Shown here piece after piece: positions 8,353 to 29,775 of a stretch of 64,000 nucleotides of DNA (the first letter of the stretch is position 1; the number at the start of each line of letters is the position of its first letter). The translations under genes and the position numbers were made by a program. The DNA is from Frigidibacter mobilis (lineage in GTDB: Bacteria; Pseudomonadota; Alphaproteobacteria; Rhodobacterales; Rhodobacteraceae), in assembly GCF_001620265.1 (NCBI RefSeq), contig NZ_CP012661.1, forward strand, positions 2,976,001 through 3,040,000, in the 5' to 3' direction. The notes under the pieces were generated by a model. It did not search any database, was not told the DNA's origin, and worked only from the letters and a program-made list of their open reading frames with translations.

Positions 8353-11290
8353 GTGCGCGCCCTCCTTCGGGATCAAGGAACACCGGATGCGACACCTCGC
8401 ACAGCAGATCGACATCGCGCAGGTGGTCGACCAGGCGCACCATCTCGCCCGTCCGCGCCCGGCCATCCTGCAGGAAGCCAAGCCCCAGCGCGCCCTTGAG
8501 CACCGGCGACCAGCAGGCCGAGGTGACATAGCCCTGATCGTTCGCGGGCGTCAGCTCTGCTCCCGGCGGGAACAGATGCGCGCCCGCCGTCAGCATCCGC
8601 CCCGGATCGACCGGGCGCAGGCCCACCAGCTGCTCGCGCGCGGGGCCCATCAGGCCGGGGCGCAGGGCGGCGCCGCGGCCGATGAAATCCTTCTTTGTGC
8701 TGAGCATCCCCTGCAGGCCCACGTCGAAGGCGGTGATGCGGCCGTGGATCTCGGCATGGGTCAGGAACCCCTTCTCGATCCGCAGCACATTCAGCGCCTC
8801 CATGCCATAGGCGCCCCCGCCCATCGCCTCGGCCCGCGCCACCAGATCACGCCAGAGCGCATCGCCATACCGCGCCGGCACCGCGATCTCATAGGCATGC
8901 TCGCCCGAAAAGCTGATGCGGAACAGGCGGCCCGCCACGCCATGCACCGTGACAGGCCCGCAGCCCATGAACGGGAAGCTGGTATCCTCCAGCGGCGAGG
9001 CCAGGATCCCGTCCAGCAGCCGCCGCGACAGCGGCCCCGCCACCGCGAACTGCGCCCAGCTTTCGGTGACCGACAGCAGCCGCACGTCCCAGTCGCCGCC
9101 GAATGCCTGCGCCACGAATTCCATGTGCCGCATCACCAGCCCGGCGGCGGCGGTGGTGGTCGTCACCACGAAATGCTGCGGTGCCAGCCGCGCGCAGGTG
9201 CCATCGTCCAGCACCATCCCGTCCTCGCGCAGCATCAAACCATAGCGGGCGCGGCCCACCGGCAGCGTGGACATGGTATTGGTATAGACGAAATCCAGAA
9301 ACCGAGCCGCATCAGCCCCTTGCACGTCGATCTTGCCAAGGGTGGACACGTCGCAGACGCCCACCTTGCCGCGCACCGCCAGCACCTCGCGGTCACAAGA
9401 CTCGCGCCAGTCCGCCTCGCCGGGGCGGGGGAAGTAGCTGGGCCGATACCACAGCCCTGCCTCGATCATCGGCGCGGCGCGGTCGCGGCAGGCCTTGTCG
9501 GATGTGGTCAGGCGCTGCGGAGCGAAGCCCGCTGCCCGCCCTCCCGCGCCCATCGCGGCGATCGACACCGGGGCATAGGGCGGCCGGAAGGTGGTGGTGC
9601 CGGTGCCCGGAATGCTGCGCCCCGTCGCATCGGCCAGCACAGCAAGCGCGGCCACGCTGGAGGTCTTGCCCTGATCCGGCGCCATGCCTTGCGTGGTGTA
9701 GCGCTTCATGTGCTCGACGCTGGCAAAGCCCTCCTTGGCCGCCAGCCGGACGTCCTTGCTGGTCACGTCATTGGCCAGGTCAAGCCAGGCCCGGCCACTC
9801 TCGCCCGGCACCTCCCAATAGGGGCGCAGGGTGTAGCCGCCATCCTCGGCCACCGGCAGCGGCAGATCGGCGGGGGTCAGGCCGAGCGCCTCGGCAGCCT
9901 CCCGCGCCACAGCCAGCCCGCCGGCCAAAGCCGCCGCAGTCGAGAACTCCCCCGCCGCGGCCCCGCAGGCCACCATCCCCGGCACCGATCCGGGCTTGCC
10001 CGGGACCGGCGGCACGAAGGCGGCGATATCCTCGCGCCAGGTCGGCCGCCCGCCCATGTGGCAGGTCAGGTGCAGCGCCGGGTTCCAGCCGCCCGAGACG
10101 GCAAGGCAATCTGCCGCAATCCGCTCCGGCCCGGTATCGGTCTGCACCGTGATCTCGCGCAGGCCGCGGCGGCCCCTCGTGGCGATCACCCGCGCCCCGG
10201 CCAGCACCGGGAACTCGCCCGCCACCCGCAGGCCCGGGCGCACGTCGATCAGCGCCGCAACCTCCACCCCCGCCGCGACCAGATCGCGCGCGGTCTGGTG
10301 GGCATTGTCATTGTTGCCGAACACCGCGACCCGCCGTCCCGGCGCCACGCCCCAGCGGTTGAGGTAGGCGCGCACCGCCCCCGCCGCCATGATCCCGGGC
10401 CGGTCATTGGCCGGGAAGGCAATCCCGCGTTCCAGCGCCCCGGTGGCCAGGATCGACCGCCGCGCCACGATCCGCCAGAAGCATTCCCTCGGCAGCGCCT
10501 CGGGCCGCTGCGCCAGATGCAGTCCCACCCGCTCCAGCGCGCCAAAGGTGCCGCCATCATAGGCGCCGGTCACGGTGGTGCGCGGCATCAACCGTACCTT
10601 CAGCGAGGCGAGTTCCGCCAGCACCTCCGCCACCCAGACCGGGCCGGGCTTGCCATCCACCTCTTGCATTTCCGCCAGCAGCCGCCCGCCCATCCGCGCA
10701 TCCTCATCGGCGAGGATCACATCGGCCCCGGCCCGCGCCGCCGCCAGCGCCGCCATCAGGCCCGCGGGCCCCGCGCCGATCACCAGCACATCGCAAAACG
10801 CAAAGGCCTTTTCGGAATGCGCCGTGTCGCTTTCCCCCGACAGCGCCCCCAGCCCCGCGGCCCGGCGGATCGCGGGTTCATAGACCCGCTCCCAGAACGC
10901 CCGCGGCCACATGAAGGTCTTGTAGTAGAAGCCGGCGCCCAGGAACGGCGCGAACAGGTCATTTACCGCCAGCAGGTCGAAACTCAGGCTCGGCCAGCGG
11001 TTCTGGCTGCGCGCCTCCAGCCCGGCGAACAGTTCCTGCACCGTCGCCCGCGTGTTGGGGGTGCTGTCCGCACCCTGCCCCACCGTCACCAGCGCATTCG
11101 GCTCTTCACTGCCCGCCGACCAGAGCCCGCGCGGGCGGTGATACTTGAAGCTGCGCCCGACCATCCGCACGCCCGAGGCCAGCAGCGCCGAGGCCAGGGT
11201 ATCGCCCTCGAACCCCACGAACTCGCGCCCGTCAAAGCGGAACCCCAGCGGGGCAGAGCGGTCGATCAGCCCCTTGCCCTCGATCCTCAT
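8345..11290 (-). CDS. soxA: Sarcosine oxidase alpha subunit
   Basis: 981 aa, the normal size. The complex oxidatively demethylates sarcosine to glycine, making 5,10-methylene-THF and H2O2. N-terminal part (about 1-100): the ferredoxin-like domain with SFKYHRPRGLWSAGSEEPNA. Residues ~165-420: dinucleotide-binding domain with VLVIGAGPAGLMAALAAARAG and a second binding segment near GRRVAVFGNNDNAHQTARDL. Residues ~590-980: GcvT-like folate-binding domain (GVCDVSTLGKIDVQGADA, AYGMEALNVLRIEKG). The ATG overlaps the soxD stop by 4 bp. All parts appear intact. Confidence 0.97.
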   Translation of the reverse strand: MRIEGKGLIDRSAPLGFRFDGREFVGFEGDTLASALLASGVRMVGRSFKYHRPRGLWSAGSEEPNALVTVGQGADSTPNTRATVQELFAGLEARSQNRWPSLSFDLLAVNDLFAPFLGAGFYYKTFMWPRAFWERVYEPAIRRAAGLGALSGESDTAHSEKAFAFCDVLVIGAGPAGLMAALAAARAGADVILADEDARMGGRLLAEMQEVDGKPGPVWVAEVLAELASLKVRLMPRTTVTGAYDGGTFGALERVGLHLAQRPEALPRECFWRIVARRSILATGALERGIAFPANDRPGIMAAGAVRAYLNRWGVAPGRRVAVFGNNDNAHQTARDLVAAGVEVAALIDVRPGLRVAGEFPVLAGARVIATRGRRGLREITVQTDTGPERIAADCLAVSGGWNPALHLTCHMGGRPTWREDIAAFVPPVPGKPGSVPGMVACGAAAGEFSTAAALAGGLAVAREAAEALGLTPADLPLPVAEDGGYTLRPYWEVPGESGRAWLDLANDVTSKDVRLAAKEGFASVEHMKRYTTQGMAPDQGKTSSVAALAVLADATGRSIPGTGTTTFRPPYAPVSIAAMGAGGRAAGFAPQRLTTSDKACRDRAAPMIEAGLWYRPSYFPRPGEADWRESCDREVLAVRGKVGVCDVSTLGKIDVQGADAARFLDFVYTNTMSTLPVGRARYGLMLREDGMVLDDGTCARLAPQHFVVTTTTAAAGLVMRHMEFVAQAFGGDWDVRLLSVTESWAQFAVAGPLSRRLLDGILASPLEDTSFPFMGCGPVTVHGVAGRLFRISFSGEHAYEIAVPARYGDALWRDLVARAEAMGGGAYGMEALNVLRIEKGFLTHAEIHGRITAFDVGLQGMLSTKKDFIGRGAALRPGLMGPAREQLVGLRPVDPGRMLTAGAHLFPPGAELTPANDQGYVTSACWSPVLKGALGLGFLQDGRARTGEMVRLVDHLRDVDLLCEVSHPVFLDPEGGRARG

Positions 11291-11565
11291 GCCGTGCCCC
11301 CTTCAGCCTGCGCGTCCGTCACCAGCCGCACCGACAGCACCTCATGGCTGATCGTGTCGCGGTTCACCACCAGCCAGGCGGCGCAGCCCATCTCATGATA
11401 CCACAGGTCGCGCGTCGCCCCGGCGGGGTTGTCGCGCAGGTGCAGGTAGGCGTCCCAGGCTTCGGCCGGGGCGTCCATCCCGGGCCGGGCGAGGTAGTCG
11501 GCGGCACCGTAATAGGTGAATTCCCGCCGGTCGCGGTCGCCGCAGAGGGGGCAGGTGATGCGCAT
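11287..11565 (-). CDS. soxD: Sarcosine oxidase delta subunit
   Basis: 92 aa, typical SoxD. It is the small zinc-binding subunit; candidate ligands are C5 and C8 (MRITCPLCGDR), H57 and C61 (WYHEMGCAAW). The family-specific EFTYYGAADYLARP segment is present. It sits between soxB (12 bp upstream) and soxA (4-bp overlap), the standard order. Confidence 0.95.
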   Translation of the reverse strand: MRITCPLCGDRDRREFTYYGAADYLARPGMDAPAEAWDAYLHLRDNPAGATRDLWYHEMGCAAWLVVNRDTISHEVLSVRLVTDAQAEGGTA

Positions 11566-11577
11566 GTGTCTCGTCCC

Positions 11578-12828
11578 TCAATGCAGGTTGTGCTGGCTGC
11601 CGGTGCCTTCTTCGTCCAGCAGGTGGCCGGTGGCGAAACGGTCGAGCCGGAAGCGACGCGCCACCTCATGCGGGTGGTCGGTCGCCATCAGATGCGCCAT
11701 GCACCAGCCCGAGGCCGGCACAGCCTTGAACCCGCCATAGTTCCAGCCGCAGTCGATATAGAGGCCGTCGATGGGCGTGCGGTCGATGATCGGGCTGCCG
11801 TCGGGCGACATGTCCATGATCCCGCCCCAGCTGCGCAGAACCTTCGCCCGGCCGATCATCGGCATCAGCGTCATTCCCGCCTCCATCACATGCTCGACCA
11901 TCGGCAGGTTGCCCCGCGCGGCATAGCTTGCGTAGAAATCGAGATCGCCGCCGAACACGAGGCCCCCCTTGTCGGACTGGCTGATGTAGAAATGCCCCAT
12001 GCCGAAGCTGATGACATGGTCGATGACCGGCTTCAGCCCCTCGGTCACGAAGGCCTGCAGGATATGGCTCTCAATCGGCAGCCGCAGCCCGGCCATCGCC
12101 GCCACCTGGCTTGAGCGCCCGGCAACGACGATCCCGACCTTCCTGGCCCGGATCGCCCCGCGGGTGGTCTGCACGCCGGTCACGCGGCCGGCGGAAATGT
12201 CGATCCCCGTCACCTCGCAGTTCTGGATCAGGTCCACCCCGCGCTGGTCTGCCCCCCGCGCATAGCCCCAGGCCACGGCATCATGCCGCGCGGTGCCGCC
12301 GCGCCGGTGCAGAAGGCCGCCATAGACCGGGAAGCGGGTGTTGTCGAAATCGAGATAGGGCAGCAGCGCCCGCACCCCGTCTCGGTCCAGCAGTTCCGCA
12401 TCATCCCCCTGGGTAATCATCGCATTGCCCCGCCGGACAAAGGCGTCGCGCTGCCCGTCGGAGTGGAACAGGTTGATGAGCCCGCGCTGGCTGTGCATCA
12501 CGTTGTAGTTCAGTTCTGCCTCCAGCCCCTCCCACAGTTTCAGCGAGTGGCTGTAGAACTCCTGGTTTCCGGGCAGGAAGTAGTTGGCGCGCACGATGGT
12601 GGTGTTGCGCCCGACATTGCCGCCACCCAGATAGCCCTTCTCCAGCACCGCGATATTCTGGATGCCGTGGTTCCTGGCCAGGTAATAGGCCGTGGAAAGA
12701 CCATGCCCGCCGCCGCCGATGATGACCATGTCATATTCGGGCTTCGGATCGGGCTCGCGCCAGACCGGCTTCCAGCCGCGGTTGCCCCGCAGCCCCTCGG
12801 CAATCACCCTCAGCCCGGAATAGCGCAT
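11578..12828 (-). CDS. soxB: Sarcosine oxidase beta subunit
   Basis: 416 aa. SoxB carries the flavins and oxidises sarcosine. It begins MRYSGLRVIAEGL, as in related Rhodobacteraceae proteins, and the FAD-binding segment YDMVIIGGGGHGLSTAYYLA lies at residues 32-51. Further DAO-family motifs are LEKGYLGGGNVGRNTTIVRA and, near the C-terminus, DCGWNYGGFKAVPASGW. An in-frame ATG at 12840 would add four residues. The open frame continues far upstream, but only as an antisense shadow of metG. It is the first gene of the soxBDAG operon, and the promoter should lie in 12829-13100. Confidence 0.96.
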   Translation of the reverse strand: MRYSGLRVIAEGLRGNRGWKPVWREPDPKPEYDMVIIGGGGHGLSTAYYLARNHGIQNIAVLEKGYLGGGNVGRNTTIVRANYFLPGNQEFYSHSLKLWEGLEAELNYNVMHSQRGLINLFHSDGQRDAFVRRGNAMITQGDDAELLDRDGVRALLPYLDFDNTRFPVYGGLLHRRGGTARHDAVAWGYARGADQRGVDLIQNCEVTGIDISAGRVTGVQTTRGAIRARKVGIVVAGRSSQVAAMAGLRLPIESHILQAFVTEGLKPVIDHVISFGMGHFYISQSDKGGLVFGGDLDFYASYAARGNLPMVEHVMEAGMTLMPMIGRAKVLRSWGGIMDMSPDGSPIIDRTPIDGLYIDCGWNYGGFKAVPASGWCMAHLMATDHPHEVARRFRLDRFATGHLLDEEGTGSQHNLH

Positions 12829-13233
12829 GTCTGCCCCCATTGCTCTGGCACCCAGTGAACCCGGTTGCGGCAGAGTTATCAACGGGGCACCGAAAATTCC
12901 CCGTCCGACGGCGACACCCGCATGTCGCAATGCAGCCTCGGCGCAAGACTGTCGTGGCTCAATGCCCTCCCTTTGCCCGGAATCAAGGCGCCTTGGCGCC
13001 GCCGGGCAGCGCCCGTCCGCCCCCTCGGGCGGGCGCTCCTCACCCTCACCGCCTAGAACCACGGGGGAGTGTGCCGCACCATAAAGTGCCCAGAACCGCC
13101 GTTGCTCGCCCACCCGGCGGCCGGGCGCTGCCCTCTGACGGTGCCACCAAAGCCCGTTGCCCCCCGCAACCCTCTGGCCCTTCCTGCACAAGGGCTGTAA
13201 ATCGCGCTGCGACACCAAAGGATAGGCGCGGCA
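12829..13233. other. Intergenic region between divergent soxB and metG
   Basis: About 400 bp without a credible gene. It must hold the two divergent promoters. The only clear structure is the hairpin at 13008-13037. No riboswitch or T-box was recognised. Confidence 0.6.
13008..13037. repeat. GC-rich hairpin upstream of metG
   Basis: AGCGCCCGTCCG (13008-13019) pairs with CGGGCGGGCGCT (13026-13037), a 12-bp stem with one wobble and a 6-nt loop. No T-run follows on either strand, so it is not a classic terminator. It could act as a leader structure or a general intergenic palindrome. Confidence 0.4.
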
Positions 13234-14952
13234 ATGGCACGGATTCTGATTACCTCGGCACTGCCCTACATCAACGGCATCAAGCATCTGGGCAACCTCG
13301 TCGGCAGCCAGTTGCCCGCCGACCTCTATGCCCGCTACATGCGGGGCCGCGGCCATGAGGTGATGTTCATCTGCGCGACCGATGAGCACGGCACCCCGGC
13401 AGAGCTTGCCGCCGCCAAGACCGGCGAGGCGGTGGATGCCTATTGCGCCCGGATGCATGAGGTACAGGCCGATCTGGCGCGCGGGTTCCGGCTGTCCTTC
13501 GACCATTACGGCCGCTCCTCCAGCGCCCGCAACCGCGCGCTGACCCAGCATTTCGCCGGCAAGCTGGCCGAGAACGGCTTCATCGAGGAGCATTCGGAAA
13601 AGCAGGTCTATTCCATCGCCGATGGCCGCTTCCTGCCCGACCGCTATATCGAGGGCACCTGCCCGAACTGCGGCTATGAGCGGGCGCGCGGCGACCAGTG
13701 CGAGAACTGCACCAAGCAGCTGGACCCGACCGACCTCATCAACCCGCGCTCGGCCATTTCCGGCTCCACCGATCTCGAGGTGCGCGAGACCAAGCATCTC
13801 TATCTGCGCCAGTCGCTGCTTAAGGATGAGATCGACACCTGGATCGACGGGCAATCGGATTGGCCGATCCTGACCACTTCGATCGCCAAGAAGTGGCTGC
13901 ATGACGGCGACGGGCTGCAGGACCGCGGCATCACCCGCGACCTGCATTGGGGCGTGCCGGTGAAGAAGGGCGACGCGGAATGGCCGGGGATGGAGGGCAA
14001 GGTCTTCTATGTCTGGTTCGATGCCCCCATCGAATATATCGGCGCCACCGCCGAATGGGCCGATGCGACCGGAAAGTCGGACAAGGACTGGGAACGCTGG
14101 TGGCGCTCCGACAAGGGCGCCGAGGATGTTCGCTATGTGCAATTCATGGGCAAGGACAACGTGCCCTTCCACACCCTCAGCTTCCCCGCCACGATCATGG
14201 GGTCGCGCGAGCCGTGGAAGCTGGTCGATTACATCAAGTCGTTCAACTACCTGAACTATGATGGCGGCCAGTTCTCGACCAGCCAGGGCCGCGGCGTGTT
14301 CATGGATCAGGCGCTGTCGATCCTGCCGCCCGATTACTGGCGCTGGTGGCTGCTGAGCCATGCCCCCGAAAGCAGCGACAGCGAGTTCACCTGGGAGAAT
14401 TTCCAGGCCTCGGTGAACAAGGATCTGGCCGACGTTCTGGGCAATTTCGTCAGCCGCATCACCAAGTTCTGCCGGTCCAAATACGGCGAGGTGGTGCCCG
14501 AGGGCGGCGAGACGGGCGAGCGGGCCGCGGCGCTGGTCGTCGAACTGGAAACCCGGGTGCGCGCCTATGAAACGCATATGGAGGCGATGGAGGTGCGCAA
14601 GGCCGCGGCCGAGCTGCGTGCGATCTGGGCCGCGGGCAACGAATACCTGCAATCGGCCGCGCCCTGGACCGTGGTCAAGACAGAGCCGGAGCGGGCGGCA
14701 GCGATGGTGCGGCTGTCGCTGAACCTCGTGCGGCTTTACGCGGTGCTGTCCGAGCCCTTCATCCCCGACGCCGCCGCGATGATGCTGGAAGCTATGGGCA
14801 CCGCCGACCGCAGTTGGCCGGGCGATGTGGCCGCGGCACTGGAAACCCTGCCCGCTGGCCACGCCTTCACCACGCCGGACAACCTGTTCCGCAAGATCAC
14901 GGATGAAGAGCGCGAGGACTGGGAAAAGCGCTTCTCGGGCATCCGCAGCTAA
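13234..14952 (+). CDS. metG: Methionyl-tRNA synthetase
   Basis: 572 aa, class I synthetase that charges tRNA-Met. The HIGH-type signature is [11 protein letters not shown] (residues 11-21). A zinc knuckle with two Cys pairs ([17 protein letters not shown]) sits near residues 144-160, and the KMSKS-type signature is FSTSQGRG (about 347-354). The anticodon-binding helical domain follows ([19 protein letters not shown]). The C-terminal tRNA-binding extension found in some MetRS is absent, as in many alphaproteobacteria. Confidence 0.96.
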
Positions 14953-14968
14953 CGACCGGCCCGGCGGC

Positions 14969-15667
14969 CTATGCCGCCGGCGCCAGAACGTGCAGCGTGA
15001 CGGCAGCGTAGAACACCATGCTCGCCACCAGCACGAAGCCGTGCCAGATCGTGTTGTGGAACGGCAGGCGGTCGTACAGGAAGAACCCGACCCCGGCGGT
15101 GTAGATCAGCCCGCCGATCACGATCAACATCAGCACCGGCGCAGACACGGTGGCAAACACGCCCCAGCCCGCGACGACCCCGACCCAGCCCATGCCCAAG
15201 TAGAGCGACAGCGCCAGCCAGCGGAACCGCTCGGGCGAGACCATCTTCAGCCCGGTCCCTGCCGCGGCCGCGCCCCATAGCCCGGCCAGCAGATAGCCCT
15301 GCCCGCCCGCCAGCAGCGTGAACGGCGTATAGGTGCCGGCAATCTTCAGGTAGATGGCCGCATGGTCCAGCCGGCGCAGCACCAGCGTCCAGCTGCCTTG
15401 CGGCACCATGTGGTAGAGCGCCGAGCACAGGATCATCGCAATCAGCGTCGCGCCATAGATCGAGGTGGCGACAACCGCCGTGGCATCGCCGCGCAGCACC
15501 ACCGTCAGCGTCACCAGCACAGGCACCGCCAGCATTGCTGCCGTCAGGCCCGAGACATGCATCACCGCATCGCTCAACCGTTCGGCGCGGCTGTAGCCAT
15601 CGCGCACGAACCGTGCGCGGCGGGGGTGTTCGGCGGGCGGGCTGCCCGGAGAGGAGTCTGGGGTCAT
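14969..15667 (-). CDS. Hemolysin III/TrhA family membrane protein
   Basis: 232 aa with about seven hydrophobic segments. Motifs of the PAQR/hemolysin III family are all present: SALYHMVP, the LDHAAIYLKIAGTYTP loop and FHNTIWHGFVL, which supply the Ser/Asp/His residues expected to bind a metal in the inner membrane. Members affect membrane fluidity or lipid homeostasis; hydrolase activity is suspected but not shown here. It is convergent with metG, with a 16-bp gap. Confidence 0.88.
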   Translation of the reverse strand: MTPDSSPGSPPAEHPRRARFVRDGYSRAERLSDAVMHVSGLTAAMLAVPVLVTLTVVLRGDATAVVATSIYGATLIAMILCSALYHMVPQGSWTLVLRRLDHAAIYLKIAGTYTPFTLLAGGQGYLLAGLWGAAAAGTGLKMVSPERFRWLALSLYLGMGWVGVVAGWGVFATVSAPVLMLIVIGGLIYTAGVGFFLYDRLPFHNTIWHGFVLVASMVFYAAVTLHVLAPAA

Positions 15668-15729
15668 GGCCTATCCTAGCGCAGATCGACGGGCACAGAT
15701 ATGGGCCAACCCTCAAACAAGCGTGAAAG

Positions 15730-16374
15730 TCAGCCGCCGAAGACCGCGCCCAACCCCTGCCCGGCGCGCACCGCCAGCAGCGCCAGGACCGCGAAATACC
15801 CGATGGTCAACCCGATGAAGCCATAGCCGGCCAGCACCATCACCCCGTCCCGCTGCATCATCCCCATTGCCAGCAGCAGCACCGCGATCGCCGGCAGCGT
15901 GTTGGAAAACGGCACCAGCCCCAGCGGCGCCATCAGCAGGATTCCCGCCAGCATCAGCATCAGCCCGTTGAAGCGCGACACCATGCCGGCCCGCGTCAAC
16001 CCGGTCAGCCGCGGCCGCACGAAGCGTTCGACCTTGCCCACCAGATCCAGCCCGCGCCCCAGGGCTGCGCGCAGCTTGTCCGACGGCATTTCCCGGTCCA
16101 GCACCCGCCGCGGCAGCCAGGGCAGCCGGTTCAGCGTGATCGCCAGCGCCGCCAGCACGATGGCGGCCCCGAACACGGTGCTGACACCCGGGATCGACAC
16201 CGGCAGCAGGAACGGCAGCGACGCGATGCCGCACAGCAGCAGCAGACCCTGCTCGCCAATCGCCTCGATCAGCCGGCGCAGGGTGATGGTCTCACCACCG
16301 ATGCCCTCGATGGTCGCGCGCAGCGAGGCGCTGAACGAGGTGGTGGTGTCGTGAAACTGTTCCTGGCTGCTCAT
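15730..16374 (-). CDS. ExoD-family exopolysaccharide synthesis membrane protein
   Basis: 214 aa from the ATG at 16374 (MSSQEQFHDTTTSF); upstream in-frame codons to 16494 look non-coding. The ExoD family (named from Sinorhizobium exopolysaccharide mutants) is recognisable by ITLRRLIEAIGEQGLLLLCGI, LPFLLPVSIPGVST and the C-terminal hydrophobic helices. Several transmembrane segments are evident. The biochemical role of the family is unknown. It stands alone between a terminator and hemolysin III. Confidence 0.85.
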   Translation of the reverse strand: MSSQEQFHDTTTSFSASLRATIEGIGGETITLRRLIEAIGEQGLLLLCGIASLPFLLPVSIPGVSTVFGAAIVLAALAITLNRLPWLPRRVLDREMPSDKLRAALGRGLDLVGKVERFVRPRLTGLTRAGMVSRFNGLMLMLAGILLMAPLGLVPFSNTLPAIAVLLLAMGMMQRDGVMVLAGYGFIGLTIGYFAVLALLAVRAGQGLGAVFGG

Positions 16375-16497
16375 GGTCCCGCCTGTCCTGATTGGGCGGC
16401 GCGTCAAAGCCGCAGTCGGTGCATAGTGCCATGCTGCGCTGCCGCATGGCAACCTCGCATCGCCCGCGCCGGCGCGCTGTCGCCTGCCGGACATGCA

Positions 16498-16525
16498 AAC
16501 GGGGAGGGCCTGCGCCCTCCCCGTT
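16498..16525 (-). terminator. Rho-independent terminator after the cold-shock gene
   Basis: AACGGGGAGGGC (16498-16509) and GCCCTCCCCGTT (16514-16525) form a perfect 12-bp stem with a 4-nt loop. On the minus strand the stem ends GTTTGC, a short T tail. It lies 50 bp past the cold-shock stop codon and separates it from the exoD-like gene. Confidence 0.75.
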
Positions 16526-16576
16526 CAGATCTGCAAGCATCGCGGGCCAAAGCCCAGCCGCTGCCCGCTCTGGCGA

Positions 16577-16783
16577 TCAGGCCAGCGCGAGGTTGGTTGC
16601 GGATTCGCGGCCGTCACGGCCGGTTTCGATGTCGAAGGTCACTTTCTGACCGTCATTCAGCTGACGGATGCCCGCACGCTCGACCGCCGAGATATGGACG
16701 AAAATGTCCTTTTTCCCGCCGTCCGGGGCGATGAAGCCGAAGCCCTTGGTGGTGTTGAACCATTTCACGCTGCCGGTGGCCAT
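16577..16783 (-). CDS. Cold-shock protein (CspA family)
   Basis: 68 aa single cold-shock domain that binds single-stranded RNA/DNA. RNP1 (KGFGFIAPD) and RNP2 (DIFVHIS) are intact, and the start [10 protein letters not shown] is canonical. A strong ribosome site (AAGGAGA) precedes the ATG. The long upstream stretch (16784-17032) can hold the promoter and a structured 5' leader, as is usual in this family, but no specific cold-box motif was confirmed. It is monocistronic, ending in the hairpin at 16498-16525. Confidence 0.95.
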
Positions 16784-17032
16784 CGTGATGTCTCCTTCAC
16801 ATATGCCGCCCGCACCATTGCGACGGCCCGGCTCTGTCAGTTCAAAATCGATAGGACTGCAGCCGATGAAGCGAGACAGGGATCGATAGAGATAACGTAA
16901 GCCGCCTCAATATGGTCCCGAACCGGCCCAAAAGCAACTGATTTCAGAACCACCGGCACAGCCCCGCCCAGCCGCTGCGGCCAGTCTGGCCTCGGCTTTC
17001 GGGGCGGAATCGCGCCCCCGGCTCAAGACGAG

Positions 17033-17079
17033 TGGTGCCCGCGGCCGGACTCGAACCGGCAAGGCCAGAGCCGAGGGAT
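17033..17079 (-). pseudogene. tRNA-Leu(UAA) 3' remnant
   Basis: Contains (minus strand) the variable-arm piece, the T stem and loop (GCCGG-TTCGAGT-CCGGC), the 3' acceptor strand CGCGGGC, discriminator A and an encoded CCA. The acceptor strand pairs exactly with the 5' fragment at 19187-19227 and not with the intact tRNA at 19013-19097. It is therefore the displaced end of the native gene. Confidence 0.88.
17062..17079. repeat. Putative attL repeat
   Basis: AGGCCAGAG-CCGA-GGGAT on the plus strand, inside the tRNA-Leu variable arm and the 3' side of the anticodon stem. It matches the right-hand copy at 19174-19190 except for the 3-4 nt centre. Confidence 0.65.
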
Positions 17080-17085
17080 CCTCTC

Positions 17086-17982
17086 CTAATAGGTCAGAAG
17101 CAGCCTGTCGCGGACTTCCTCAGCCTCACATGTCTGCCCACCCATCTGAAACCGCTTGAGCATGGACCGGCCCACGTTGACCATAAGCTCCCGCTCGAAC
17201 AGGCCTTCCGGCAAGTCAATGTCACAGTAGTGGTTGCCGCTCTTTTTGGTCCCGTCGATGCTGAGCACCACATAGACGCCCCGGCGCTTGCAGTCTTCAA
17301 TTGCTTCCATCAACTTCGCCAGGCTGAAACTCTGAGCCCCGTAAAGGATCGCCTGCGAGTGCGAATAGGGTGGGTCGCAGTATACCAGATCGCCAGGCTT
17401 GGCGCGCGCCATCGCCTCGGTGTAGTCGAGCAGGTGGAACTTCGAGCCCTTGAGCCTGTGCTGCCAAGTATCAACTCGCTTCGAAAAGGCGTCAGGGCTG
17501 ATGGGTTGGTGCGCCCCGATAGGTGTGGACATATACCCGTCATTCTTCCGGAACCGAACCACGCCCCCAAAGCATGACCGGGTAAGGAACAGGAAGTCTG
17601 CGCCATTGGGGTTGGCGTTGTAGGACGCCTTGATTTTCTCGTATTGTTCTACCCGGTCGCCTGCCTTATAGGTTTCCCACCTGGTGGCATACCAGCGCTT
17701 CAACTCATCTGGGCGTTCGGCAAGGGCCGCCCAGATTTCAATTAGCGGGGCAAAGACATCTGAGCCATACCCCTCGCTTGGCGCTAGAGTTGCCATTACA
17801 CCACCAGCCCCGAGGAATGGCTCGTAATAGGCGCCGAATTGTGCGGGGAAGTGGCCAATAATTTCGTGGGCGTATTTCTGTTTATTTCCAATCCATTTCA
17901 AAAGCTGCGTTTTGAATGGTGCGGGCGAGCGCATCTTCACCGGTTCCGCGCGGTCTAGTCCCGCAAAAAGGGCATACTGCAT
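17086..17982 (-). CDS. D12-class DNA adenine-N6 methyltransferase
   Basis: 298 aa, the usual length for a Dam/DpnII-type (alpha-class) N6-adenine methyltransferase using SAM. Motifs in order: KWIGNKQKYA (~29-38), the SAM-binding YYEPFLGAGGVM (~52-63), a target recognition region including CFGGVVRFRKNDGYMSTPIG, and the catalytic CDPPYSHSQ near residue 200. The start at 17982 has GAGAGGGAC just upstream. It is divergent from the endonuclease-like gene with 145 bp between the starts, and its stop lies 7 bp from the tRNA remnant. Recognition sequence is unknown; GATC and CATG are known for this class. It would protect host DNA from the partner nuclease. Confidence 0.93.
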   Translation of the reverse strand: MQYALFAGLDRAEPVKMRSPAPFKTQLLKWIGNKQKYAHEIIGHFPAQFGAYYEPFLGAGGVMATLAPSEGYGSDVFAPLIEIWAALAERPDELKRWYATRWETYKAGDRVEQYEKIKASYNANPNGADFLFLTRSCFGGVVRFRKNDGYMSTPIGAHQPISPDAFSKRVDTWQHRLKGSKFHLLDYTEAMARAKPGDLVYCDPPYSHSQAILYGAQSFSLAKLMEAIEDCKRRGVYVVLSIDGTKKSGNHYCDIDLPEGLFERELMVNVGRSMLKRFQMGGQTCEAEEVRDRLLLTY

Positions 17983-18027
17983 CTAGTCCCTCTCTTGCCC
18001 TTCGCCTCAACACCTGCGATCTTGCTT

Positions 18028-18040
18028 CAGTGTGGCACTG
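18028..18040. promoter_or_regulatory. Inverted repeat between the divergent methyltransferase and endonuclease genes
   Basis: CAGTG-TGG-CACTG, a perfect 5-bp dyad roughly midway in the 145-bp control region. Divergent restriction-modification genes often use a shared operator to delay nuclease expression; no separate controller gene is present. Functional role is inferred. Confidence 0.35.
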
Positions 18041-18127
18041 GCTCCAAGCACTTTTTGTAGGCGGAGAATTGCGTCGTTTTCACGTCCCACTATCCTGTTC
18101 AGTTACCGCGAGCGAGGACCAAAAGCA

Positions 18128-19006
18128 ATGCAGCCAGAGAAGCGTTTCCTAGCGCAACCGAAATCCTTCTGGGCTTGCGTCCGGACTATCAGCCAAAAGG
18201 TTGGCTATACCCAACGCGGCACGCGTCAGATCAAGGTGCCCACCCTCAACGACATGGTTGCAGCGTTCCGGGACCTGGGCCTGAACGTCCATGGCCTGCG
18301 CCACAAGGACGACACCCCGACCGACCTGGCGGTCAAGCTGACTGACTACTTCAAGTATCGCGCCAAGGTGTTGAACGAGCACGTTGAGCCCAGGCTGATG
18401 GACGCCGCACGGGCGAAGCACGAGTTTGACCGCCTGCGCGCCGAACTCAAGCCCAAGCGGGCGTTTGCGATGAACAAGCAGAAGGGCGAGAAGAAGTCAG
18501 AAGCCTACCTGACGTCCATCGTGAACATGCTGATTGAGGCCCACTCGGAGGGGTTGCCCTGTGACTACGACCCACGGGAACTGACGACCATCACCCATGA
18601 CGGGATGCCTGTCAGGACCCTGGCCAGGCGCGTAGACGGGGCTTTCCCAAGTGCCGTGAACCCGGTGGCCGTGTGGGAAATCAAGGAATACTACTACACC
18701 ACCACCTTTGGCAGCCGTGTGGCAGACGGGGTGTATGAAAGCCTCCTGGACGGGATGGAACTGGAAGAACTGCGCGAGCATGAGGCCATCGACGTGCGCC
18801 ACTACCTAATGGTGGACGCCCACTATACTTGGTGGGACCGTGGGCGGTCCTACCTCTGCCGCATGGTTGACATGCTGCACATGGGCTATGTGGACGAGGT
18901 TCTGTTCGGATACGAGGTCATTGAGGAAATGCCCCGTATTGTCAAAGAGATGGTGGAACTGACTAGGGCTCTGAATGCTCATGGAGGTGAGCTTCCCACA
19001 GATTGA
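18128..19006 (+). CDS. Candidate type II restriction endonuclease (PD-(D/E)XK-like)
   Basis: 292 aa from the ATG at 18128; an in-frame GTG at 18032 would add 32 residues that look non-coding. I do not recognise a named family. A nuclease reading rests on D170 followed by W-E184-I-K186 in the segment FPSAVNPVAVWEIKEYYYTT, which fits the D...(D/E)XK pattern, and on its divergent pairing with a methyltransferase in a two-gene island. The N-terminal ~60 residues (KSFWACVRTISQKVGYTQRG) may be a DNA-binding domain. Codon use is less GC-rich than the flanking host genes. The stop is 6 bp from the 3' end of the intact tRNA-Leu on the other strand. Confidence 0.7.
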   Translation: MQPEKRFLAQPKSFWACVRTISQKVGYTQRGTRQIKVPTLNDMVAAFRDLGLNVHGLRHKDDTPTDLAVKLTDYFKYRAKVLNEHVEPRLMDAARAKHEFDRLRAELKPKRAFAMNKQKGEKKSEAYLTSIVNMLIEAHSEGLPCDYDPRELTTITHDGMPVRTLARRVDGAFPSAVNPVAVWEIKEYYYTTTFGSRVADGVYESLLDGMELEELREHEAIDVRHYLMVDAHYTWWDRGRSYLCRMVDMLHMGYVDEVLFGYEVIEEMPRIVKEMVELTRALNAHGGELPTD

Positions 19007-19012
19007 GTTGCT

Positions 19013-19097
19013 TGGTGCGGGCGGCGGGAGTCGAACCCGCACGAGCTTGGCTCTAGCGATTTTAAGTCGCTTGTGTCTACCGTTCCACCACGCCCGC
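19013..19097 (-). tRNA. tRNA-Leu (anticodon UAA), intact, island-borne
   Basis: 85 nt including an encoded CCA. Acceptor GCGGGCG/CGCCCGC, anticodon stem AGCGA-CTTAAAA-TCGCT with anticodon TAA, a long variable arm and a regular T arm (GCGGG-TTCGACT-CCCGC). It differs in most stems from the native split gene, so it is not a duplicate made by insertion. It lies 90 nt downstream of the native tRNA 5' half in the same orientation. Confidence 0.95.
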
Positions 19098-19173
19098 AAA
19101 GACGTGCATTGGGTCTAATTCAGGCCCAAAGTTCTTCGTATCGCCTTAAGGCCATGAAAACAATGTGTTCCTC

Positions 19174-19190
19174 AGGCCAGAGTGCGGGAT
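19174..19190. repeat. Putative attR repeat
   Basis: AGGCCAGAG-TGC-GGGAT, the partner of the repeat at 17062-17079. It abuts the tRNA 5' half; beyond it, towards the island, similarity to the tRNA T arm stops at once, so the gene is not restored. Confidence 0.65.
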
Positions 19191-19227
19191 TTTAAGTCCC
19201 CTGTGTCTACCATTTCACCACGCGGGC
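19187..19227 (-). pseudogene. tRNA-Leu(UAA) 5' remnant
   Basis: Minus strand, starting GCCCGCGTGGTG, with D arm and the complete anticodon loop CTTAAAA, ending in the anticodon stem TCCC. It lacks the T arm and 3' acceptor, which lie at 17033-17079. The native tRNA promoter should be upstream (19228-19312). Confidence 0.88.
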
Positions 19228-19312
19228 CGCCAAGGTCGGCGCAGCCGCCGACACTGGCCCGGACCATAACCGGCGCCTGGAGCGAAGGAAAGCCGGGCGG
19301 CGCCTTGCAGCC

Positions 19313-19780
19313 TTACCCGAGACCCACCTCTTTCACCGTCTCCATCGCCACATAGGTGGAGGTGGAGGCGACATGCGGCAGGGTAGAGATCCGCTCCGCC
19401 ATCACCCGCCGATAGTCGGAAATATCCCCGGTGCGCACCTTCAGCAGGTAATCGAAGCCGCCCGCGATCATGTGGCATTCCTCGATTTCCGGCACCCCCC
19501 GCACCGCCCGGTTGAAGCCCTGCAAGGCCGCCTCGCGGGTGTCGGACAGCCGCACCTCGACAAAGGCGACATGGGCAAGGCCCATGCGGATCGGATTCAG
19601 CAGCGCCCGGTAGCCCGCGATATAGCCCGCCTGCTCCAGCCGTTTCACCCGCGCCTGCACGGGGGATTTGGTCAGCCCCACGCGCCGCGCCAGCTCGGCA
19701 TGGGCGATGCGCCCGTCGGCCGCCAGTTCCCGCAGAATCGCGGTGTCGAAACGATCGAGTGCGGGAAGGTCATTAGCCAT
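19313..19780 (-). CDS. putR: Lrp/AsnC-family regulator, PutR-like
   Basis: 155 aa from ATG 19780 (MANDLPALDRFDTAIL). The N-terminal winged HTH includes RIAHAELARRVGLTKSPVQARVKRLE and the C-terminal half is an Lrp effector-binding domain (GFDYLLKVRTGDISDYRRVM). It is divergent from putA with 130 bp between starts, as PutR is in Rhodobacter and Agrobacterium, where it activates proline degradation in response to proline. The regulated region holds two copies of an AGGCG-N3-CGCCT palindrome. The open frame upstream of 19780 is an antisense shadow of putA. Confidence 0.9.
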   Translation of the reverse strand: MANDLPALDRFDTAILRELAADGRIAHAELARRVGLTKSPVQARVKRLEQAGYIAGYRALLNPIRMGLAHVAFVEVRLSDTREAALQGFNRAVRGVPEIEECHMIAGGFDYLLKVRTGDISDYRRVMAERISTLPHVASTSTYVAMETVKEVGLG

Positions 19781-19798
19781 GTCAAACCCTCGAAAATC

Positions 19799-19841
19799 AG
19801 GCGATCCGCCTGCAACATGATATTGAACAGGCGAAGCGCCT
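19799..19841. promoter_or_regulatory. Paired palindromes between putR and putA, probable PutR operators
   Basis: AGGCG-ATC-CGCCT at 19799-19811 and AGGCG-AAG-CGCCT at 19829-19841. Both arms are identical in the two copies; only the 3-nt centre differs. Their starts are 30 bp apart, close to three helical turns, which suits an Lrp-type octamer. Both lie between the divergent start codons. Confidence 0.7.
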
Positions 19842-19910
19842 TCGGATTTGCCGATAGAATACCGGGATTGCAAGCCCCCAATCCTCTCTCCTTTCCACAG
19901 GACCGCTCCC

Positions 19911-22900
19911 ATGCAGGACATCTGGCACCGCCTTGACACCGGCACCCTCGCGCCCGAAGGGCCGCTGCTGGCGGGGCTGATTGCCAGCGCCGGGCTGGAC
20001 GCTGCCACCCGCGCCCGCATCGCCGCCCGCGGCGCCGATCTGGTCCGCGCGATCCGGGCCGACGCAAGGCCGGGACTGATGGAGGTGTTCCTGGCCGAAT
20101 ATGGCCTCTCGACCGATGAGGGCATCGCCCTGATGTGCCTGGCCGAAGCACTGCTGCGGGTGCCCGATGCCGGCACGATGGACGCGCTGATCGAGGACAA
20201 GATCGCCCCCTCGGACTGGTCGCGGCATCTGGGCGGCTCTGCCTCCACCCTCGTCAACGCCTCGACCTGGGCACTGATGCTGACCGGCAAGGTTCTGGAT
20301 GACCGAGAACCCGGCGTCGCCGGCCACCTGCGCGCCGCGATCCGCCGTGTGGGTGAGCCGGTGATCCGCGCCGCCGTCGCCCGCGCGATGAAGGAGATGG
20401 GCCGCCAGTTCGTGCTGGGGGAAAGCATCCGCGCCGCCATGACCCGCGCCGAAAAGCTGGAGGCGCAGGGCTACACCTACAGTTATGACATGCTGGGCGA
20501 GGCGGCCAGAACCGCCGAGGATGCCGCGCGCTATGCCAAAAGCTATGCCGCCGCCATCGCCGCCATCGCGGGCGCCTGCACCACGGGTGACGTGCGCAGC
20601 AATCCCGGCATCTCGGTCAAGCTCTCGGCCCTGCATCCCCGCTACGAGGTGGCGCAGGAGGCCCGGGTGATGGCCGAACTGGTGCCCGTGGTGCAGGCAC
20701 TGGCCCGCGACGCCGCCCGCGCCGGCATGGGCTTCAACATCGACGCCGAAGAGGCAGACCGCCTGACCCTGTCGCTGAAGGTGATCGAGGCGGTGCTGGC
20801 CGATCCCGAGCTTGCCGGCTGGGACGGGTTCGGCGTGGTGGTGCAGGCCTATGGTCGCCGCGCCGGGGCCACGCTCGACTGGCTGCACGCGCTGGCGGTG
20901 AAACTTGGCCGCCGCATCATGGTGCGCCTGGTCAAGGGTGCCTACTGGGACGCCGAGGTGAAGCGCGCACAGGTTCTGGGCCTGACCGATTTCCCGGTCT
21001 TCACCCGCAAATCCGCAACCGATGTCAGCTATATCGCCAATGCCGCCAAGCTGCTGGCGATGACCGACCGGATCTATCCGCAATTCGCCACCCACAACGC
21101 CCATACCGTCGCCGCGATCCTCGAGATGGCCACCGATCCCGCCGCCTATGAATTCCAGCGCCTGCATGGCATGGGCGAGCGTCTGCATGACATCGTCCAC
21201 CGGGCCGAGGGCACCCGCTGCCGGATCTATGCCCCCGTCGGCGCCCACCGCGACCTTCTGGCCTATCTGGTGCGGCGGCTGCTGGAAAACGGCGCCAACT
21301 CCTCCTTCGTGCACCAGATCGTCGATGCCGCCGTGCCGCCCGAAACCGTCGCCGCCTGCCCCTTCGCGGCCACCGAGGCGCTGCTGCCGGATGCCGCCAA
21401 TCCCGCCATCCGCCCCGGCCCCGCGCTCTTCGCGCCAGAGCGCCCCAACAGCCGCGGCTTCGACCTGACCGACGCCGCCACCCTCGCCGCCATCGAGGCC
21501 GCCCGCGCCCCGTTCTTCACCGACACGCCCACCGCTGCCCCGCTGATCGCCGCCCCCCTCGCCGCCGCCGATCCGCAGCCGCTGCACAGCCCCGCCACCG
21601 GCGCGCTCATCGGCCATGTCGCCCCTGCCACGCCTGCCGATACCGATGCCGCCCTCGCCGCCGCCACCCCCTGGGACGCCCCCGCCGCCACCCGCGCCGA
21701 GATCCTGATGCGCGCCGCGGGCCTCTACGAGGACCACTTCGGCGAGATCTTCGCCCTGCTCGCCCGCGAGGCCGGCAAGACCCTGCCCGACGCCGTCGCC
21801 GAACTGCGCGAGGCGGTGGACTTCCTGCGCTACTACGCGGCCCAGGGCGCCACCCTCACCGCCCCGGCCCGCGGCACCGTCACCTGCATCAGCCCCTGGA
21901 ACTTCCCGCTCGCCATCTTCACCGGCCAGATCGCCGCCGCCCTCGCCGCCGGCAATGCCGTGCTGGCAAAACCGGCCGAGCAGACGCCGCTGATCGCCCA
22001 CCTTGCCACGCGCCTCCTGCACCGCGCCGGCGTGCCACCCACCGCCCTGCAACTGCTGCCCGGCGCGGGCCGCGTCATCGGCGCCGCCCTCACCGCCGAC
22101 CCACGCATAAACGGCACCGTCTTCACCGGCTCCACCGCCACCGCCCGCGCCATCCGCTCTGCGATGGCCTCCGCCACCGCCCCCGGCACGCCGCTGATCG
22201 CCGAAACCGGCGGGCTCAACGCCATGATCGTCGATTCCACCGCCCTGCCCGAACAGGCGGTGCGCGACATCATCGCCTCGGCCTTCCAGTCGGCGGGCCA
22301 GCGCTGCTCGGCCCTGCGCTGCCTCTATGTGCAGGAGGATATCGCCGCCCCCCTCCTCCACATGCTCTCGGGCGCGATGGATGAGCTGGTTCTCGGCGAC
22401 CCGCTGAACCTCGCCACCGATATCGGCCCGGTGATCGACGCGGTCGCGCTCGCCAGGATCCGCGCCCATGTCGCCCGCGCCCGCAGCGAAGGCCGCCTCG
22501 TCAAGGAACTCGCCGCCCCCGCCTCCGGCACCTTCGCCGCCCCCGCGATCCTGCGCATCTCCGGCATCGCCGACCTGGCCGAAGAGATCTTCGGCCCCGT
22601 CCTCCACGTCGCCACTTTCCGCGCCGGCGACCTGCCATCGGTCGTCGCCGCCATCAACGCCAGCGGCTACGGCCTCACCTTCGGCATCCACAGCCGCATC
22701 GACGGGCGCGTGCAGGAGGTGACGGCGGCGCTGCGGGTCGGCAACCTCTATGTCAACCGCAACCAGATCGGCGCCGTGGTCGGCAGCCAGCCCTTTGGCG
22801 GCGAGGGGCTGTCGGGCACCGGGCCCAAGGCCGGCGGGCCGGACTACCTGCCCCGCCTCACCGCCGCGCCGCGGATTGAAGTGACTGCCCGGCCCGCCGC

Positions 22901-23351
22901 CCCCGAGGACGAACCCGCCCTGCAGGTCCGCCTGACCGCCGCCGCCCCGGGGCCCGCCCCGGCCCACGCGCAGACCCTCCCCGGCCCCACCGGCGAATCG
23001 AACCGCCTCTCGCTCCACCCCCGCGCCCCGCTGCTCTGCGCCGGCCCGGGGCCAGAGGCCGCGAGCGCCCAAGCCGCCGCCATCCGCGCCCTCGGCGGCA
23101 CGGCGGTCGAGGCCCCCGGCGCCCTCCCCCCCGGCGCCCTGACCCGCCTGCAAGGCTTCTCCGCCGTAATCTTCTGGGGCCCGGAGCCCGAGGCCCGCGC
23201 CTTCGCCCAGTCCCTCGCCACCCGCCCCGGCCCGATCCTGCCGCTGATTACCAGCGCCCCCGACCGCGCCCATGCGCTGCTGGAGCGGCACCTCTGCGTG
23301 GACACGACGGCCTCGGGGGGGAATGCGGAGCTGCTGGTGGCGGCGGGGTGA
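19911..23351 (+). CDS. putA: Bifunctional proline dehydrogenase / glutamate-semialdehyde dehydrogenase PutA
   Basis: 1146 aa from ATG 19911; upstream in-frame codons from 19848 look like leader. PutA oxidises proline to P5C with FAD and then to glutamate with NAD. It lacks the N-terminal ribbon-helix-helix repressor domain of enteric PutA, so regulation falls to PutR. The PRODH barrel spans roughly 150-470 (IDAEEADRLTLSLKVIEAV, RLVKGAYWDAEVKRAQ, RIYAPVGAHRDLLAYLVRRL). The aldehyde dehydrogenase spans about 550-1000, with SPWNFPLAIFTGQIAAALA, E765 (AETGGLN) and the catalytic C799 (SAGQRCSALRC). A low-complexity Ala/Pro-rich tail of about 150 residues with a degenerate ALDH-like fold completes it. 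Confidence 0.96.
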   Translation: MQDIWHRLDTGTLAPEGPLLAGLIASAGLDAATRARIAARGADLVRAIRADARPGLMEVFLAEYGLSTDEGIALMCLAEALLRVPDAGTMDALIEDKIAPSDWSRHLGGSASTLVNASTWALMLTGKVLDDREPGVAGHLRAAIRRVGEPVIRAAVARAMKEMGRQFVLGESIRAAMTRAEKLEAQGYTYSYDMLGEAARTAEDAARYAKSYAAAIAAIAGACTTGDVRSNPGISVKLSALHPRYEVAQEARVMAELVPVVQALARDAARAGMGFNIDAEEADRLTLSLKVIEAVLADPELAGWDGFGVVVQAYGRRAGATLDWLHALAVKLGRRIMVRLVKGAYWDAEVKRAQVLGLTDFPVFTRKSATDVSYIANAAKLLAMTDRIYPQFATHNAHTVAAILEMATDPAAYEFQRLHGMGERLHDIVHRAEGTRCRIYAPVGAHRDLLAYLVRRLLENGANSSFVHQIVDAAVPPETVAACPFAATEALLPDAANPAIRPGPALFAPERPNSRGFDLTDAATLAAIEAARAPFFTDTPTAAPLIAAPLAAADPQPLHSPATGALIGHVAPATPADTDAALAAATPWDAPAATRAEILMRAAGLYEDHFGEIFALLAREAGKTLPDAVAELREAVDFLRYYAAQGATLTAPARGTVTCISPWNFPLAIFTGQIAAALAAGNAVLAKPAEQTPLIAHLATRLLHRAGVPPTALQLLPGAGRVIGAALTADPRINGTVFTGSTATARAIRSAMASATAPGTPLIAETGGLNAMIVDSTALPEQAVRDIIASAFQSAGQRCSALRCLYVQEDIAAPLLHMLSGAMDELVLGDPLNLATDIGPVIDAVALARIRAHVARARSEGRLVKELAAPASGTFAAPAILRISGIADLAEEIFGPVLHVATFRAGDLPSVVAAINASGYGLTFGIHSRIDGRVQEVTAALRVGNLYVNRNQIGAVVGSQPFGGEGLSGTGPKAGGPDYLPRLTAAPRIEVTARPAAPEDEPALQVRLTAAAPGPAPAHAQTLPGPTGESNRLSLHPRAPLLCAGPGPEAASAQAAAIRALGGTAVEAPGALPPGALTRLQGFSAVIFWGPEPEARAFAQSLATRPGPILPLITSAPDRAHALLERHLCVDTTASGGNAELLVAAG

Positions 23352-23446
23352 GGGGGGGGGGAGCGCGGCTGCGTCAACGAATCACTGGCCGGCCGTTCAC
23401 GTTTCCGTTATCGCCGCTTTAGTACGAATCTCTGGGGGGACGGAAA

Positions 23447-23965
23447 TTGCTTATACTGCGCGGTAGTTTAATGGTGGTTGCTCTGGCGCTTGTCGCAGCT
23501 TGTGAACCCACGACGCAGCAACTGGTGAAACAGGGCAAGCCGATCGAGCTTATCCACCCTGCAAAGCCTGGCGTGACTGCTGGTCGTATGCAGAGCGATT
23601 TCACTGATTGCAAGATTGAGGCGGCACAGCGCGTTCCCCAGCAGATGATGATTGGCACGACTCCTACCTATACGACGCCGGTTCAGACCCAATGCGTGAA
23701 CTACGGGTATTCGGTGAGTTGCCAAACGACTGGTGGCCAGACTTATGGCGGCAACACCTATAGCTACGACGCAAATGCGCGCCTGCGCATTACGGCGGAG
23801 GCGCAGTGTCTGTTCCGCAACGGTTACCGCTTCACAACAGTGCCCAAATGCCCGGCAGATGCCAGCACAAGACCGATCCGCGAGCAACTGTACGCGCTGT
23901 CCGCGAACACGTGCTACGTAGCCGACGTAGAGGGCAATTACTCCCTTACAGAGTCTGTACGCTAA
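23447..23965 (+). CDS. Putative lipoprotein of unknown function
   Basis: 172 aa from a TTG at 23447 with GGGGGGA about 7 nt upstream; an ATG at 23471 is possible but has a poor ribosome site. The N-terminus is a short lipoprotein signal with lipobox LVAAC, so the mature protein should be anchored through Cys19. Six further Cys follow, some likely paired (DFTDCKIEA, TQCVNYGYSVSCQTT, EAQCLF, VPKCPAD, NTCYVADVE). Base composition is clearly less GC-rich than putA, suggesting transfer. Similar small Cys-rich lipoproteins occur in prophages, but the family is not recognised. Confidence 0.7.
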   Translation: MLILRGSLMVVALALVAACEPTTQQLVKQGKPIELIHPAKPGVTAGRMQSDFTDCKIEAAQRVPQQMMIGTTPTYTTPVQTQCVNYGYSVSCQTTGGQTYGGNTYSYDANARLRITAEAQCLFRNGYRFTTVPKCPADASTRPIREQLYALSANTCYVADVEGNYSLTESVR

Positions 23966-24005
23966 CCTCAGAAACGCTGCTCAACCCTGACCGCCGAACC
24001 GCCTT

Positions 24006-29494: not shown

Positions 29495-29526
29495 CGGCTT
29501 TGATCCGATGTGATCGGGCGGAAGAA

Positions 29527-29692: not shown

Positions 29693-29775
29693 AAGGACAT
29701 CGAAGCGACTGAGTTGGACAGGGCTGGACCCTGCCCCCGCACCGCGGCATCCTGCCCTCCGCAGCAGGAGCCCCC

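Follow-up and report, generated by a model that had tools for sequence, protein, structure and literature searches.

An insert with a restriction-modification pair in a split tRNA-Leu(UAA) gene of Frigidibacter mobilis: probable remnant of a PICI-like element that brings its own tRNA

Introduction

Genomic islands that integrate into tRNA genes are described as restoring their target from a fragment carried at attP, the attachment site of the element, and 2083 of 3919 islands are anticodon-centred (PMC4383910). An intact tRNA gene reconstituted after integration is likewise described in PMC8371274. Some phage-inducible chromosomal islands (PICIs) damage the displaced tRNA fragment, for which an addiction effect has been proposed (PMC10111431). 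The occurrence of tRNA genes inside phage-related sequences of Sinorhizobium has been reported (PMC11476347), and the tycheposons are mentioned as a further group (PMC10872708, PMC10187409). Among the titles and abstract openings listed in searches of an open-access library, none describes whole-tRNA replacement by integrated elements, or Rhodobacter or Rhodobacteraceae satellites of such a kind. Here, we analyze a 64,000-nucleotide stretch of Frigidibacter mobilis (the window hereafter; G000:C1 2976001-3040000, in an assembly of four contigs), in which a tRNA-Leu(UAA) gene is interrupted by an insert holding a second, complete tRNA-Leu(UAA), referred to as the spare tRNA, and a restriction-modification pair. 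With a probability of roughly 0.8, the insert represents the decayed left end of a larger integrative, PICI-like (phage-satellite-like) element, that is, a deletion remnant that has kept the spare tRNA and the restriction pair.

Results

The sole tRNA called in the window, by ARAGORN and by Rfam at gathering scores (60.4 bits), is the complete tRNA-Leu(UAA) of the insert. Two partial tRNA sequences on the same strand border the insert (Table 1). The 5′ part extends through the anticodon stem and stops at 19186. Both parts were compared with the intact tRNA-Leu(UAA) of the sister genome G297; when the two were joined by a script, they were called as tRNA-Leu(UAA). The first-pass annotation of this DNA had described a native tRNA gene split into halves that rejoin, and its coordinates proved correct to within one or two bases. 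The alternative it had named, fragments from different tRNA genes, is contradicted by the match of both halves to one sister tRNA. G297 and G205 each carry a single intact tRNA at the syntenic locus, which is thus an empty site, and the gene order putA-lrp-tRNA-Leu-cspA-exoD-hlyIII-metG is common to these two genomes and, minus the insert, to the window. A search of five genomes of the genus with an anticodon-arm pattern, allowing at most one mismatch, gave one exact match per sister genome and two in G000, where it hit both the complete tRNA and the interrupted 5′ half. Matches with one mismatch, in G000, G205, and G297, had the anticodon CAA. A larger prophage around the insert was considered and rejected on the evidence of the flanks, where the genes to either side belong to the host and keep the order seen in the sisters.

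Table 1. Features of the insert and of the tRNA gene that it interrupts, in window coordinates.
Feature	Position	Strand	Evidence
Native interrupted tRNA-Leu(UAA), 5′ part including the anticodon loop	19186..19227	-	41/42 identity to intact sister tRNA; anticodon-arm pattern match
Att core GACTTAAAATCC (anticodon loop and stem), left end	19187..19198	-	common to left ends of G266, G151, G488, G558, and G537
Conserved left-end spacer, 89 bp; matched part 19103-19170	19098..19186	-	nhmmer E 5.5e-12; alignment of 11 sequences from 10 genomes
Complete spare (replacement) tRNA-Leu(UAA), element-borne	19013..19097	-	ARAGORN, Rfam; 84/85 identity to spacer-linked tRNA of G348
Candidate Type II restriction endonuclease, DUF7690 + DUF7687, 292 amino acids	18128..19006	+	PADLOC REase_II 7.8e-62
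D12/Dam-family N6-adenine DNA methyltransferase, 298 amino acids	17086..17982	-	PF02086 2.9e-26; NCBIfam TIGR00571; PADLOC MTase_II 3.7e-71
Right junction: few bases past methyltransferase stop codon, then tRNA ATCCC; ACTTAA half-core absent	17075..17085	-	comparison with G266 and G537 right ends
Native tRNA-Leu(UAA), 3′ part to CCA	17033..17074 (17079 counting ATCCC)	-	41/42 identity to sister tRNA

Two related elements were traced end to end, one of 14.8 kb in G266 and one of 15.6 kb in G537. The G266 element lies at the same putA-lrp...metG locus and extends between the core within the 5′ half on one side and GACTTAAAATCC with the 3′ half on the other. The att (attachment) core of the window's left end is found, as ACTTAAAATC, at the right ends of both complete elements as well, where the tRNA 3′ half follows it. 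A tyrosine integrase gene adjoins this right-end core and 3′ half in each (PF00589, 2.2e-12 in G266 and 4.7e-13 in G537), and the two integrases are 64% identical. Both elements also encode a primase-type protein (phrog_864, 3.8e-54 in G266; phrog_1156, 1.4e-39 in G537) and a terS-like gene (phrog_4044, 9.5e-10 and 1.4e-10, respectively). An excisionase-like helix-turn-helix (HTH) protein is present in G266 (HTH_17, 9.7e-8; phrog_66, 5.1e-7), and G537 has a small HTH-like open reading frame (ORF). Judged from gene content, the anatomy of the two elements appears PICI-like. The G266 integrase had no match in viral contigs.

Comparison with these relatives exposed damage at the right end of the insert. 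Whereas ACTTAAAATC stands at both ends in G266 and G537, the window has it at the left end only; the left half of the core (ACTTAA) is missing at the right, and ATCCC is the only sequence common to the two ends at the core position. Our first guess, a core of the form ATCCC...CTCTGGCCT shared by both junctions, was dropped, and the CTCTGGCCT match is taken as a coincidence because the AAAATCCCGCACTCTGG left end recurs in G488 and because the core of the complete relatives lies in the anticodon loop. No integrase, replication, or packaging-related gene was found within 17033-19227 by ORF list, Pfam, or phmmer, and the G266 integrase, used as a phmmer query, gave no match among ORFs of at least 80 amino acids in 10001-24000 of the window. 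As the first-pass annotation had noted, there is neither an integrase nor a rebuilt 3′ end. Because the right end lacks the half-core and no replication or integration gene lies between the tRNA halves, we read the insert as a remnant.

Relatives of the left end were sought by several routes. A pattern of two tRNA-Leu anticodon arms placed 98-128 bases apart, run on 394 genomes of the bacterial family, matched three of them (G000, G266, and G151). The spacers of the window and G266 are homologous, with an alignment score of 36 against a maximum of 24 over 500 shuffles. A spacer pattern derived from G000, G266, and G151, with at most two mismatches allowed, matched 15 of 390 genomes of the order, compared with one match for the reversed control; with the window set aside, 14 loci matched, and a complete tRNA-Leu(UAA) lies just 3′ of the spacer at seven of them and is absent from the other seven. 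L166 (which has a tRNA-Val), L167, L169, L170, L173, L179, and L180, none with a tRNA-Leu nearby, were left out of the element family as chance or decayed matches; L173 retains a weak match to the spacer profile (E 9.7e-6). A profile built without the window recovered the window's spacer from 1.44 Mb of DNA by nhmmer (Table 1). A sequence-only model of 11 spacers from 10 genomes, the window's included, found seven of the 394 family genomes at E ≤0.001, two of them weakly (G261, 4.5e-6; G075, 8.4e-4 and over part of the model only), and in all seven a complete tRNA-Leu(UAA) lies immediately downstream of the spacer.

In total, a spacer followed by a complete tRNA-Leu(UAA) was found in 13 genomes of nine genera, with the spacer weak in two. 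The interrupted 5′ half is recognizable by eye upstream in eight of the 13 (G000, G151, G266, G346, G488, and G558, and in altered form G537 and G075) and unrecognizable in G348, G261, G570, G613, and G632. The distance from core to spare tRNA, measured at nine loci, is 95-99 bp at six and 109 bp in G488; G613 and G632 have no readable core. The window insert has the three features that define the family, namely a split tRNA-Leu(UAA) 5′ half, the conserved spacer, and a complete tRNA-Leu(UAA) in the same orientation. The spacer is possibly an attP arm, a leader of the spare tRNA, or both. Neither pattern search nor short BLAST found the 3′ half in the examined stretches of G570, G632, G613, and G151, and G151:C8:60458 was rejected as the right end of the G151 element since the sequence there holds no tRNA 3′ half.

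Two members have unusual surroundings. G558 (L188:4349-4630) has two tandem left-end spacers separated by an interrupted tRNA-Leu 5′ half, the pattern that would be expected had the spare tRNA of one element become the target of a second. In G613 (L184:3231-4700), the sequence immediately upstream of the spacer holds a tRNA-Thr-like 3′ half and a distant relative of tyrosine integrases, which suggests a neighboring second element.

The spare tRNA is the only complete tRNA-Leu(UAA) with that anticodon arm found in G000. In 12 of the 13 member genomes (all but G075), the 11-mer GACTTAAAATC was confined to the element, except for one coding-region match in G151. Its backwards control gave five matches across the same 12 genomes, so the stray match is within chance. 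This distribution fits an element-borne tRNA that is the only copy, in a search that sees tRNAs with this arm in assembled sequence and is blind to a different arm or to a copy in an assembly gap (the G348 assembly is 84% complete). In the sister genomes G295 and G296 (L101:7457-7541 and L102:243-327), a tRNA-Leu(UAA) of the spare type, 77/85 and 83/85 identical to that of the window, respectively, stands without a recognizable spacer; these are possibly older replacements.

Apart from its tRNA, the insert holds two divergent genes, encoding the methyltransferase and the candidate endonuclease; all remaining ORFs of at least 40 amino acids between the tRNA halves overlap these genes or tRNA sequences, in agreement with the gene content given by the first-pass annotation. 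The PADLOC MTase_II alignment reaches the end of the profile. The adjacent genes match MTase_II and REase_II, respectively, and so have the linked arrangement of a Type II restriction-modification system, with NCBIfam giving no match for the candidate endonuclease and Pfam labeling its parts solely as domains of unknown function (DUFs). The methyltransferase partner was present at 76 of the 80 best of 209 endonuclease loci, and at the other four the endonuclease is at a contig end. The two genes have a G+C content of 57-59%, compared with 68% for the window. Relatives of the endonuclease were absent from phage records, and those in plasmids comprised four distant records.

The same restriction pair adjoins a gpA-type terminase gene (Pfam) in Actibacterium L019, Roseisalinus L020, and the viral contig L162, which indicates that the pair also travels without the tRNA-Leu(UAA) element; by eye, L160 and L161 have ORFs similar to this arrangement of restriction pair and terminase. 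In Paracoccus sediminis (L021:4200-7120), the pair lies between a tRNA-Thr(CGU) with an ORF resembling an integrase N-terminus and a 76-nucleotide tRNA-like gene with the anticodon UAA. We rejected this locus as a missing intermediate: its spacer match was weak (E 0.54) and vanished with the window-including profile, and the Pfam matches of the ORF were below the cut-off.

To survey the cargo of the family, one to four proteins per genome, a subset of the ORFs within about 5 kb after the spare tRNA, were scanned with PADLOC in nine genomes. Clear defense matches were obtained for the methyltransferase and endonuclease of the window; for a GmrSD-like protein, a cytosine methyltransferase, and a SmaI-type endonuclease in G537; for two TIR proteins in G151; and for a cytosine methyltransferase in G346. 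G558 gave a weak HNH match (E 6.1e-4). Of the G570 proteins, one went unmatched, and the match of a LuxR-type regulator to CARF models covered only its C-terminal part. The region beside the spare tRNA thus appears often, not always, to hold defense genes. For three cargo proteins of the G266 element (L145:7026-12622), scans of two against Pfam and of two against PADLOC gave no hits.

One further difference between the window and its sisters lies outside the insert. The gap between lrp and tRNA-Leu is about 85 bp in the window (19228-19312) versus 1.4-1.7 kb in the sister genomes, so that a segment has either disappeared from the window or been added in the sisters; a portion of this segment in G297 is similar to 29505-29696 of the window (69%).

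Discussion

We propose that a tyrosine integrase acts on the core of about 10-12 bp, ACTTAAAATC(C), and recombines it with the cell's single tRNA-Leu(UAA) gene at the anticodon loop. Integration would destroy the target because the core of the element precedes a spacer that is not tRNA, rather than a tRNA 3′ half. The element would make good the loss with a whole tRNA-Leu(UAA) that lies about 95-109 bp past the core, is oriented like the target, and could be transcribed from the native promoter. Near this spare tRNA would lie a cargo region, often with defense genes, here the putative Type II restriction-modification pair. A deletion in the window would then have spanned everything between the stop codon of the methyltransferase gene and the right-end anticodon loop. 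Lost with it would be the genes for replication, terS, and the integrase, together with half of attR, the right attachment site. A single deletion of this extent is the simplest account. Restriction-modification pairs resist loss. What the deletion left would be the sole tRNA-Leu(UAA) and a self-maintaining pair, both hard for the cell to lose.

A different origin had been suggested in the first-pass annotation, that of a non-autonomous cassette moved in trans. In this reading, the spare tRNA and the restriction pair form a minimal unit flanked by att sites, which an integrase encoded elsewhere excised and reinserted. Such a cassette would account for an insert that has no integrase, two complete-looking genes, and tRNA halves otherwise undamaged, but it fits poorly with a right end from which the ACTTAA half-core is gone, leaving only ATCCC in common, when both complete relatives keep it at left and right. 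Moreover, relatives with the same left end carry an integrase of their own within elements of about 15 kb, in G266 at the same locus. The annotation had looked to relatives with the same arrangement inside a larger prophage as the finding that would count against it; these integrase-bearing elements come close, without being exactly a larger prophage. We consider trans-mobilization quite improbable. The annotation had contrasted the insert with islands that rebuild the 3′ end of their target; the supply of a whole tRNA in place of a 3′ half is not peculiar to the window and recurs in the family. It is also unlikely that the right junction was made in two steps, with a family element inserting and decaying and the restriction pair arriving later beside the spare tRNA by unrelated recombination. 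The occurrence of the pair beside the gpA-type terminase, away from any tRNA-Leu(UAA) element, would suit that history, but defense genes near the spare tRNA also occur in G537, G151, and G346, and such cargo is common in the family. An assembly artefact, or a chance similarity joining unrelated tRNA fragments, has nothing in its favor beyond the short size of the insert and is hardly credible in view of halves that both match one sister tRNA so closely, of syntenic flanks, and of a spacer-tRNA structure found in 13 genomes.

Several observations also weigh against a decayed PICI-like element. Its deletion is deduced from the missing half-core; an intermediate with the DUF7687 pair and an integrase at tRNA-Leu(UAA) was not found, the P. 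sediminis locus being at best suggestive; the spacer, as an exact pattern, is absent from viral contigs; and PADLOC found no defense match in the scanned proteins of G266 (two cargo proteins), G613, and G632. In addition, six window genes counted contain no UUA (TTA) codons, so the essentiality of the spare tRNA rests on conservation. We suggest from its single-copy conservation that it may be essential.

The wider proposal, for which we see about even odds, is that tRNA replacement is how a satellite-like family of Rhodobacteraceae-like bacteria operates, with every insertion killing the only tRNA-Leu(UAA) and substituting its own, and that the window together with G348, G261, G570, G613, and G632 represents stages of a satellite-driven tRNA turnover. 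If so, loss of the element by deletion would be lethal, a fully decayed element would leave its tRNA fixed as the sole copy of the host, and defense cargo would ride beside an indispensable gene. The family offers a testable case of a mobile element that holds an essential-looking gene with defense genes beside it, and of a way in which a host tRNA gene could be permanently replaced. The insert further illustrates that an apparently integrase-free mini-island may arise by deletion rather than by trans-mobilization.

Compared with known systems, the restriction pair resembles Type II restriction-modification with a D12/Dam-type methyltransferase, in that a methyltransferase and a candidate endonuclease with what may be a restriction-endonuclease-like fold are adjacent and divergent; it differs in an endonuclease that Pfam and NCBIfam leave without a functional name. 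Tycheposons, likened here by description only, share tRNA borders, a tyrosine recombinase, and cargo (PMC10872708, PMC10187409). With the anticodon-centred class A islands of Islander, the family shares a crossover in the tRNA anticodon loop and a tyrosine integrase, whereas those islands are recognized by a tDNA that an attP fragment makes whole again and by a single displaced fragment (PMC4383910); in the present family, neither half remains in a working gene, both being displaced, and the complete tRNA is a separate gene. The Islander finder, as described there, depends on the rebuilt target, so that target-breaking, tRNA-replacing elements fall outside it. The PICIs that damage the displaced fragment likewise alter the tRNA gene of their host, which may make the cell dependent on the element. 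The deletion described for them is in the attR fragment (PMC10111431), while in the present family the target itself is broken and a gene brought by the element takes its place. PICIs and small phage satellites in general are matched by G266 and G537, known here from their genes alone, in the integrase, primase, and terS-like genes, the size of about 15 kb, and the tRNA target, and further by the excisionase-like HTH of G266 and the defense cargo of G537. The two elements differ from them in carrying a whole tRNA gene and not a target-rebuilding fragment, and the window insert, without any mobility gene, is a remnant and not a member. These elements thus appear to be PICI-like with a new twist, in which the tRNA target is destroyed and a whole replacement is supplied.

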